Shown in pieces: positions 55,895 to 58,676 of a stretch of 64,000 bases of DNA (position 1 is its first letter; every line of letters starts with the position of its first letter). Below the pieces are notes generated by a model. That model worked only from the letters and a program-made list of their open reading frames with translations, ran no database searches and had not been told where the DNA came from. The stretch is taken from contig NZ_BIXZ01000002.1 in NCBI RefSeq assembly GCF_005406125.1, positions 434,001 to 498,000 of the forward strand, written 5' to 3'. The position numbers and the translations under genes are program-made. This stretch comes from Haloarcula mannanilytica (lineage in GTDB: Archaea; Halobacteriota; Halobacteria; Halobacteriales; Haloarculaceae).

Positions 55895-55919
55895 GGTATT
55901 ATGTACTCGCAACCGAGTA
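55895..55919 (-). promoter_or_regulatory. ribE promoter with palindromic candidate operator
   Basis: The minus-strand TATA-like ATAATACC (plus 55895-55902) lies about 50 nt before the ribE ATG. Directly upstream of it is the perfect palindrome TACTCG-CAAC-CGAGTA (55904-55919). Archaeal riboflavin genes are commonly controlled by RbkR (HTH-riboflavin kinase); linking this site to RbkR is inference. The same region also precedes the divergent 47-aa gene. Confidence 0.45.
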
Positions 55920-55976: not shown

Positions 55977-56120
55977 ATGGCAGTCACGCCCGACGCAGAC
56001 CACGACTGGGCCACACGTCATGCACGAACGGACCCAGCCGAAACCGGCCGAATCGTCGAGGTGTCCGACGAACGCACGGACTGGGACGTGCGACACGCCG
56101 AAACGAAAGGCCGCAGTTAG
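55977..56120 (+). CDS. 47-aa acidic/histidine-rich microprotein
   Basis: The short frame has ATG 55977 and TAG 56118-56120. It reads MAVTPDADHDWATRHARTDP, then AETGRIVEVSDERTDWDVRH and AETKGRS. The charged halophilic composition and strand placement (divergent from ribE, 4-nt overlap with pgk 3' end) suggest a genuine gene. It has two W-(A/D)-(T/V)-R-H repeats (DWATRH and DWDVRH), perhaps a duplicated motif. The function is unknown. Confidence 0.58.
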   Translation: MAVTPDADHDWATRHARTDPAETGRIVEVSDERTDWDVRHAETKGRS

Positions 56121-57322
56121 CGCTGGAGGACTTCGACGCCGACCAGTTGTGCGCCGGTCAGCGCCCGGATGTAGGCCCCGCCCGCGATAGAGACGTGGCC
56201 GAACTCGTCTTCTTCCATCCCATACATCTCGATAGCCCGCGAGGTGTCGCCGCCGCCGACGACGGAGAAACAGTCGGTGTCGGCGATGGCTTCGAGTACG
56301 CCAGCAGTCCCGACCGAGAAGCGTTCGTCTTCGAACATCCCCAGCGCCCCCTTCACGAAGACGGCCTCGGAATCGCGGATAATCGGGGAGTACTCCATGA
56401 CTGTCTCGCTCCCAACGTCGAGGTAGGAGACGGTCTTCTCCTCGATGTCGTCGACAGCCTGCTCGGCACGGTCGCCGTCGTCGTCCTCGTAGGCCAGGTC
56501 GACCGCGAGCGTGATCTGGTCGCGGTGGTCTTCGAGCATGGACTCGATCTTTTCGCTGTTTTGCTCCCACTGTTCGTCGTAGAGGTTTGCGTCGTCGATG
56601 TCGTAGCCGACCGGGTAGCCCGCGGCCCGCAGGAACAACTCCCCAGCGATACCGCCCAGCAGGAAGTCGTCGACCTTCTCGTCGAGATGGGTCATCACGT
56701 CGATGACATCGGTGGCTTTCGTCCCGCCGACGACCATCGTCACCTGCCCGTCGAACTCCTTCTCGGCGATGGCGGTGTTGGCCTCGTACTCGGTTTCCAT
56801 CACGCGGCCGGCGTAGGCGTCCATCACCAGCGGGAAGCCGACAAGCGAGGCGTGTGAGCGGTGGGCCGCGGAGTAGGCGTCGTTGATGTAGGCGTCGAAC
56901 TCGTCTTTGAGGGTCTGGACGAACTCCGTCTGTGATTTGACCTCCGGGTCTTCTTCGGGGAGTTCGTCGTCACACATCCGCGTGTTCTCCAGGACGAGCA
57001 CGTCGCCGCTGTCGAGGTCGGCGATGTCGTGAATCGCCTGTGGCCCGTAGGTCTCGTCGACGAAGTCCACGTCGTGGTCGATGTGCTCGGCGAGGATGTC
57101 CGCGTGCTGGGACAGCGAGACGAAATCATTGCGGCCCGGGCGACCCTGGTGGGCCAGTACCGCAATCTCGAACCCGCGGTCAACGAGTTCGCTGATCGTT
57201 TCGGCGTGGCGGTCGAACCGTCGGTTGTCCTGTACCGTGCCGTCCTCTACCGGTGAGTTGAGGTCGAGCCGGACGAGGACGCGCTGTCCGTCGTCGAGGT
57301 CATCAAGCGTCTGGAAAGTCAT
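56117..57322 (-). CDS. pgk: Phosphoglycerate kinase
   Basis: The 401-aa monomeric glycolytic and gluconeogenic kinase interconverts 1,3-bisphosphoglycerate and 3-phosphoglycerate. Motifs: VLVRLDLNSPVEDGTVQDNR (N-lobe Arg/Asp substrate site), LAHQGRPGR, AINDAYSAAHRSHAS-type segment (YINDAYSAAHRSHAS), MVVGGTKATD, and nucleotide loop FVKGALGMFEDERF with CFSVVGGGDTSRA. ATG 57322 is used; the preceding GTG (57325) is possible. A TATA-like GTTAAG near 57351 gives a leaderless mRNA, separate from the upstream RNA signal. Confidence 0.96.
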   Translation of the reverse strand: MTFQTLDDLDDGQRVLVRLDLNSPVEDGTVQDNRRFDRHAETISELVDRGFEIAVLAHQGRPGRNDFVSLSQHADILAEHIDHDVDFVDETYGPQAIHDIADLDSGDVLVLENTRMCDDELPEEDPEVKSQTEFVQTLKDEFDAYINDAYSAAHRSHASLVGFPLVMDAYAGRVMETEYEANTAIAEKEFDGQVTMVVGGTKATDVIDVMTHLDEKVDDFLLGGIAGELFLRAAGYPVGYDIDDANLYDEQWEQNSEKIESMLEDHRDQITLAVDLAYEDDDGDRAEQAVDDIEEKTVSYLDVGSETVMEYSPIIRDSEAVFVKGALGMFEDERFSVGTAGVLEAIADTDCFSVVGGGDTSRAIEMYGMEEDEFGHVSIAGGAYIRALTGAQLVGVEVLQR

Positions 57323-57424
57323 CACTCGGGAGGATACCTGCCGGCCGCTTAACGGTTTCCGAGTCCGAACAGCGGGCGGTTCCGCCGGCCCGTCGCATCG
57401 CTATACGGCTGTCTCCTGACCGCA

Positions 57425-57597
57425 CATTCAGAGAGAGGGAGAGAAGGGATGGGGTGGGAGTGGTGTGGGGGTGGGGATACCTCGTCCGCTGTGTGCAACC
57501 GTCACCGGGTCACGGGATGACGGCTGCGGATACGGCTGACTGCGCCGACACACAGAGCCAGCCCCGTGTGGGGGTGGTTCGCACTCTGTGTGTACTA
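57425..57597 (-). ncRNA. Predicted structured RNA between gap and pgk
   Basis: The minus strand has GTTTATAATGG (plus 57614-57624), a near-consensus haloarchaeal TATA box, centred about 26 nt before 57594. The predicted RNA begins with a perfect 10-bp stem (ACACACAGAG/CTCTGTGTGT, 57548-57557 with 57584-57593). A nested stem CCAGCCCC/GGGGGTGG lies inside it. A second stem (GCA-A-CCGTCA with TGACGG-C-TGC, 57495-57527) follows, then a polypyrimidine tract (57429-57452). No convincing ORF is present. It could also be part of a long pgk leader, but pgk has its own TATA. This covers the 346-bp gap between the genes. Confidence 0.5.
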
Positions 57598-57671
57598 CAC
57601 AATCCGTTAACAACCATTATAAACTTTTCTGGCGTTGCCAGCAGTTTCCCGGCGAAACGGCCGAACGGCGC

Positions 57672-58676
57672 TTACTCGGTGATGTACTCGGCCACGTCGA
57701 GCATCCGGTTCGAGAAGCCGTACTCGTTGTCGTACCAGGTGAGGATCTTCGTCTGCCCGTTGACGACGTTTGTCGAGGCGAGGTCGACCTGCGTGGAGTA
57801 CGGGTCACCGAGGATATCGGAGGAGACGAGCTCATCGTTCGTGACGCCGAGCACGCCTTCGAGTTCGCCGTTTGCGGCCGCTTCGAAGGCGGCGTTGACA
57901 TCGCTCTCTGTCACGTCTTCGTCGAGGTCGACGACGAACTCCGTGATCGAGCCGTTCGGGACCGGCACACGGATCGCCATCCCGTCGAGCTTGCCCTCTA
58001 GCTGGGGCAGGACCTCGGTGGTCGCCTGCGCAGCACCGGTCGAGGTCGGGATGATGTTCTCGGCGGCCGCGCGGCGACGGCGGGGCTTGCCGTTCGGGCC
58101 GTCCATCAGGTTCTGGGAGCCGGTGTAGGCGTGGACGGTCGTCAGCTGGCCGACGTTGATGCCGAACTCCTCATCGAGGACCTTTGCGACCGGCGTGATG
58201 GAGTTGGTCGTACAGGAGGCGTTCGAGACGACCTTCTCGCCGTCGTACTCGTCGTGGTTGACGCCGTAGACGATCTGCTTGACCGGCTCGTCGCCCTTCG
58301 GCGGCGCGGAGATGAGGACCTTGTCAGCGCCCGCATCGAGGTGCTGGCTCGCGTCCTCTTTCGTGCGGAAGATGCCGGTCGCCTCGAAGGCTACGTCCAC
58401 GTCGAGGTCGTCCCACGGGAGCTGTGTCGGGTCGGTCTCGTGGAAGATGCCCGCCTCGAAGTCGGTGCCCTCGACCGTGAGGACGCCGTCGTCGACGCTT
58501 GCGCCTTCGAGTTCGCCCATGACGGTGTCGTACTGGGCGAAGTAGTCGATCTCCGAATCGTCCATCACGTCGTTGATGCCGACGATTTCAACGTTGTCGT
58601 TTTCTAACGATGCGCGGAACACGTTCCGGCCGATACGGCCGAAGCCGTTGAGGCCGACACGAACTGGCTCACTCAT
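57672..58676 (-). CDS. gap: Glyceraldehyde-3-phosphate dehydrogenase, type I
   Basis: The 334-aa NAD(P)-dependent GAPDH is of the bacterial/eukaryotic class, not the archaeal class II. The Rossmann motif is RVGLNGFGRIGRNVFRASLE. The catalytic Cys155 is in SNASCTTNSITPVAKVL, His in TVHAYTGSQNLMDGP, and the phosphate-binding RRRRAAAENIIPTSTGAA loop follows. Haloarchaea carry such bacterial-type GAPDH for glycolysis or gluconeogenesis. A minus-strand TATA-like CACTTTACAC is about 29 nt upstream. It is transcribed in the same direction as pgk, separated by the predicted RNA. Confidence 0.97.
   Translation of the reverse strand: MSEPVRVGLNGFGRIGRNVFRASLENDNVEIVGINDVMDDSEIDYFAQYDTVMGELEGASVDDGVLTVEGTDFEAGIFHETDPTQLPWDDLDVDVAFEATGIFRTKEDASQHLDAGADKVLISAPPKGDEPVKQIVYGVNHDEYDGEKVVSNASCTTNSITPVAKVLDEEFGINVGQLTTVHAYTGSQNLMDGPNGKPRRRRAAAENIIPTSTGAAQATTEVLPQLEGKLDGMAIRVPVPNGSITEFVVDLDEDVTESDVNAAFEAAANGELEGVLGVTNDELVSSDILGDPYSTQVDLASTNVVNGQTKILTWYDNEYGFSNRMLDVAEYITE

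Follow-up and report, generated by a model that had tools for sequence, protein, structure and literature searches.

The 349-nt interval separating the gapI and pgk genes of Haloarcula mannanilytica, both of which lie on the minus strand, contains a two-hairpin element shared by 15 core Haloarcula genomes (referred to below as the carriers), and this element is a candidate for an independently transcribed regulatory small RNA (sRNA), which is the reading that its sequence context makes probable. The existence of a selected RNA structure at this site is almost certain, and much surer than the mode of action of the RNA. The window, i.e. the whole stretch of 64,000 nucleotides analyzed, carries the following features in and around the interval:

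57672..58676, minus strand: gapI, type I (bacterial-type) glyceraldehyde-3-phosphate dehydrogenase (TIGR01534, 411 bits, cut-off 367.2)
57614..57624, minus strand: predicted TATA box for transcription of the candidate RNA, GTTTATAATGG, centred ~26 nt upstream of 57594, with A-rich BRE-like bases directly upstream
57430..57593, minus strand: candidate non-coding RNA of ~165 nt; the TATA spacing, the structure and the tail would place its 5' end near 57593-57596 and its 3' end around 57430, within the pyrimidine tract
57548..57593, minus strand: hairpin 1, consisting of a basal 10-bp stem, ACACACAGAG/CTCTGTGTGT, and a nested CCA/TGG and CCCC/GGGG stem
57495..57527, minus strand: hairpin 2, GCAGCCGTCA/TGACGGTTGC plus CCG/CGG, with the pentaloop UGACC at 57512-57508
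57430..57478, minus strand: pyrimidine tract, single-stranded; judging from its sequence, it may be a terminator, a C-rich region for pairing, or both
57345..57364, minus strand: pgk's own promoter, ACTCGGAAACCGTTAAGCGG, ~23-42 nt before the pgk ATG, conserved in the carriers and in nearly all the non-carriers
56117..57322, minus strand: pgk, phosphoglycerate kinase (NF010569, 243 bits; below the cut-off of 883 because this model was built for the bifunctional pgk/tpi)

Conservation of the RNA structure

The stems and the polypyrimidine tract described in the sequence-only reading are all present. Hairpin 1 has at its base a perfect 10-bp stem (arms 57593-57584 and 57557-57548) enclosing the nested GC stem, and the second stem, which had been given as 9 bp with one mismatch, is in fact slightly better, since it comprises 10 bp including one G-U pair, followed by 3 bp beyond a 2-nt bulge. 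The window has 10 inverted repeats of 10 bp, and ten windows randomized by Markov shuffling had 1-11 each; a 197-nt segment folded as a single sequence gave a z of -1.57. As both the 10-bp stem and the fold energy are near chance, single-sequence significance was rejected as evidence, and the finding depends on the comparison between genomes.

When the alignment was folded with RNAalifold, an energy of -26.2 was obtained, as against -7.0 +/- 2.7 after shuffling of the columns (0/500; z -7.2), and the same two hairpins were recovered without the structure being given. Covariation was tested on a 14-sequence alignment and a 37-pair structure, using shuffles that leave the kinship among the sequences in place: the cells showing double changes numbered 20 versus 9.4 +/- 2.6 in the shuffles (0/500), the covariation score was 0.198 versus 0.146 +/- 0.010, and 8 pairs had a double change, a figure that 102 of the 500 shuffles also reached. 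Paired cells amounted to 89.6%, versus 25-44% after sliding the partner strands, a control which is biased toward the structure because the latter was hand-drawn from the same sequences.

Compensatory changes, on which the earlier reading had proposed to check its stems, are present in the nested stem of hairpin 1 (double changes at pairs 20-39 and 26-33) and in hairpin 2, where the column pair 80-98 occurs as A-U, G-C, U-A, C-G, and G-U and the pair 82-96 as A-U and G-C. The loop of hairpin 2 is conserved across the carriers as UG(A/U)CC. This hairpin is lost in genome G010 and altered in G007 and G014, and is therefore dispensable. In hairpin 1, the basal stem hardly varies and therefore shows little covariation, as might be expected if the inverted repeats were protein-binding sites acting at the DNA level, or the relic of a mobile element, rather than RNA. 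The compensatory changes in the other two stems argue against a non-RNA element of this kind, as does the fact that it occurs in single copy, with no dispersed copies and no match in plasmids or phages, and we consider it highly improbable.

Among the carriers, the segment identities were 0.72 in hairpin 1, 0.62 in the linker and hairpin 2, 0.55 in the spacer before pgk, and 0.46-0.47 in the stretch following gapI and in the pyrimidine tail. No ORF with a conserved start or frame was detected among the 15 homologues, the alignment of which has 1- and 2-nt indels; a coding reading was rejected since no ORF is common to the homologues, in agreement with the earlier view that no ORF here is credible. 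As regards known RNA classes, an H/ACA guide RNA was rejected because the ACA after hairpin 1 is not conserved (GCA in G000, G007, and G014) and the internal loop is one-sided, with no two-sided pocket, and a K-turn RNA was rejected because inspection of the alignment showed that the motif is absent.

Promoter, ends, and transcriptional independence

Along the minus strand, the gapI stop is followed by a weak T run, the TATA element, hairpin 1, hairpin 2, the pyrimidine tract, the spacer, and the pgk promoter. Because a terminator-like T run, a promoter, a structured RNA, a pyrimidine/T end and the promoter of the next gene succeed each other in this order, the element probably constitutes an independent small transcription unit. 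The TATA box stands at the right distance from position 57594, as had been noted. Its TTTATAATTATT-type element has remained well conserved in 12 of the 15 carriers and has drifted in G007, G014, and G026 (in G007, the alignment gives TTTATC at position 48 of the intergenic region, ~28 nt upstream of hairpin 1). Between the first base of the TATA match and that of hairpin 1, the distance is 25-28 nt in 14 carriers, and the identity of the TATA segment is 0.74 as against 0.47 in the adjoining upstream stretch. A scan for promoters and terminators of the bacterial type, which is unsuited to archaea, found nothing.

The TATA that the sequence-only reading attributed to pgk itself was also found; it shows an identity of 0.91 in the carrier alignment and is kept in nearly all the species without the RNA. 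As nearly all species have a separate pgk promoter, the RNA is probably a separate transcript of ~165 nt, predicted to run from 57593 to ~57430 on the minus strand; the earlier proposal of a structured RNA separate from pgk is supported by this promoter together with the covariation, the spacing between TATA and stem, and the synteny in 15 species.

The main rival to the sRNA reading is that the structure is a cis-acting leader of pgk, crossed by transcription coming from the TATA or from gapI, the flow to pgk being set by a metabolite, a protein, or termination at the pyrimidine/T tract. The element does lie on the same strand as pgk, directly upstream of it in every carrier, with a T run between the structure and the gene. 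The strongly conserved promoter just before the pgk start codon, present even where the RNA is missing, argues against a leader, as do the variable distance from the core to pgk (122-163 nt), the poor conservation of the spacer, and the fact that no alternative terminator/antiterminator pairing was seen in the element. A leader seems to us rather unlikely. Still less likely is an intercistronic element in the 3'-UTR of gapI that would give the two parts of a gapI-pgk mRNA different stabilities, possibly with release of a processed RNA. Its position between the cistrons, with hairpins beginning shortly past gapI, would fit this role, which however leaves the conserved TATA and its 25-28 nt spacing unexplained; moreover, the short T runs found 12-23 nt past the gapI stop in most genomes of both the carrier and the non-carrier groups suggest that gapI ends before the hairpins. 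Co-transcription of gapI and pgk has been reported in Har. hispanica (PMC10817205), which speaks for both the leader and the processing element and keeps these two readings alive.

In the non-carriers G015, G028, G022, G034, G032, and G027, two T runs occur ~17-21 and 48-52 nt past the gapI stop, a pattern suggesting that gapI terminates separately from pgk in these genomes.

At the other end of the candidate RNA, runs of T3-T6 are present 109-166 nt past the start of the core in 14 of the 15 homologues; the tail in the window genome has short CT runs only, without any T run. In Haloferax, the intergenic terminator motif is a T stretch (PMC7237163).

To return to the independent sRNA, the interval would contain a complete unit, in which a TATA promoter would drive a two-hairpin RNA beginning with the lower stem of hairpin 1 and finishing at a pyrimidine/T-rich end. 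Once independently transcribed, the RNA would most likely act in trans as a regulator: the hairpins would confer stability, and exposed conserved parts, namely the UG[A/U]CCC loop of hairpin 2, the linker and the C-rich tail, would pair with mRNAs. From the features set out above we infer the transcription, both RNA ends and the action in trans, and the hairpin 2 loop and the C-rich tail are presumed pairing sites. The points against this sRNA reading are the reported co-transcription of gapI and pgk (PMC10817205), the tail without a T run in the window genome, the dispensable hairpin 2, and a search for targets that gave no signal (see below).

Distribution and origin

A DNA search over 146 genomes of the family yielded related intervals in congeners only. 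About 200 extra bases are present between gapI and pgk in the 15 core Haloarcula genomes, in which the gap measures 290-349 nt, so that the element is conserved in close relatives, as the sequence-only reading would have it; the carriers include Har. vallismortis, amylolytica, argentinensis, sebkhae, and salina, and presumably Har. hispanica, which we take to be carrier G013. In 15 other congeners the element is absent, the gap being 109-161 nt in 13 of them and holding longer, unrelated sequence in G012 (241 nt) and G020 (492 nt). By reading, the G020 gap appears to contain an ORF on the opposite strand whose product would resemble a translation factor of the SUI1/eIF1 type. In haloarchaea at large, most gapI-pgk gaps measure 3-190 nt and do not contain the element.

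The pgk gene was found in 31 of 32 congeners, and in the pgk tree the carriers form one clade with a support of 99/96; the row of G028, apparently mistranslated, has a very long branch and falls outside this clade. Since the carriers are a single clade, the simplest scenario is one gain of the element, at the root of core Haloarcula. A covariance model found one copy per carrier genome, always at the gapI-pgk site, including the G010 copy, which had been excluded from training (E = 0.029). With strict filters, which can lose weak matches, no convincing match was obtained in some 500 other genomes of the family and order; weak lone matches in G112 (E 0.02) and G155 were taken as chance. In viral contigs, 15 pattern matches were obtained, fewer than the ~35 roughly estimated for chance. 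No family of Rfam 15 matches the element, the only match being a chance one to PyrR208 elsewhere (56240-56313, E 0.91), and a covariance model now exists for this RNA family absent from Rfam.

The putative sRNA shows a single gain on a known branch, an unchanging genomic position, covarying stems, and signals for both promoter and end; in our judgement, few archaeal sRNA candidates have so clean an evolutionary record. Because the carriers include the culturable Har. amylolytica, argentinensis, and vallismortis, together with the presumed carrier Har. hispanica, which is genetically tractable, its transcription and its effect on carbon metabolism are testable.

Known analogues and the link with glycolysis

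The candidate RNA appears to be undescribed, as no paper reporting an RNA in the gapI-pgk interval was found in a literature search, and it resembles known archaeal small RNAs. Its nearest analogue by design is sRNA132 of Haloferax volcanii (PMC6560208), which is experimentally proven, functional, and acts in phosphate starvation. Both are intergenic, with their own BRE/TATA promoter, two stems, a pyrimidine-rich single-stranded segment and a similar length (138 nt in sRNA132), and both are restricted to one genus, at a fixed genomic place beside a neighbour with its own promoter. Some features of the sRNA132 type of haloarchaeal intergenic sRNA recur here at the sequence level, in that the secondary structure is conserved, the sequence is non-coding, and a predicted archaeal promoter lies at the proper distance from the predicted 5' end. 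The two RNAs differ in genus and locus, no sequence relation has been shown between them, and the pyrimidine tract separates the stems in sRNA132, whereas it comes after them in the Haloarcula candidate. Haloarchaeal intergenic sRNAs, in Haloferax and among the itsRNAs of halite communities (PMC7002113, PMC3956466), likewise measure 50-200 nt and have archaeal promoter elements and conserved stem-loops.

The sequence-only reading proposed an sRNA tied to switching between glycolysis and gluconeogenesis. Since the exact TrmB box is absent from the RNA promoter, it is by its location only that the element would point to such a role; the nearest match to the box, 57582-57597, was rejected, as its 2 mismatches are at chance level. 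Duplex tests with the translation-start segments of gapII, ppsA, and pyk, based on a simple shuffle and ignoring accessibility, showed no pairing signal (mean z values of 0.28, -0.47, and 0.20, respectively), a result that counts neither for nor against these targets. It might be imagined that an RNA specific to Haloarcula and born once in the gapI-pgk block senses or relays the glycolytic state, either as an sRNA acting on the mRNAs of carbon flow or as a leader that binds a metabolite or a protein and of which a short form is released independently, and we regard this as unlikely; if true, such an RNA would add an RNA layer above TrmB control.

In Har. hispanica, a TrmB-induced, unannotated transcript of ~200 nt has been reported near ChIP peak 3, and the legend places it at HAH_2649 (PMC10817205). 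It is like the candidate RNA in genus, size, and unannotated status, but its locus differs, being an estimated 140 kb from gapI-pgk (by interpolation, and taking G013 to be Har. hispanica). The ribC gene adjoining pgk matches HAH_2806, which would put the gapI-pgk locus at about HAH_2803-2804, and a link between the two RNAs was rejected on the gene order.

The sole exact TrmB box of the window, TACTCGCAACCGAGTA (55904-55919), lies between ribC (riboflavin synthase, minus strand) and a 47-aa ORF (55978-56118, plus strand) that converges on the 3' end of pgk. This ORF is matched in 15 of the 15 carriers, more weakly in G026, and the box is present with 0-1 mismatch in 14. They correspond to ChIP peak 11 of Har. 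hispanica, at HAH_2805/HAH_2806, where the small gene is activated by TrmB and has an extended 3' UTR (PMC10817205); in the arrangement observed here, an extended 3' UTR of the 47-aa gene would run antisense into pgk.
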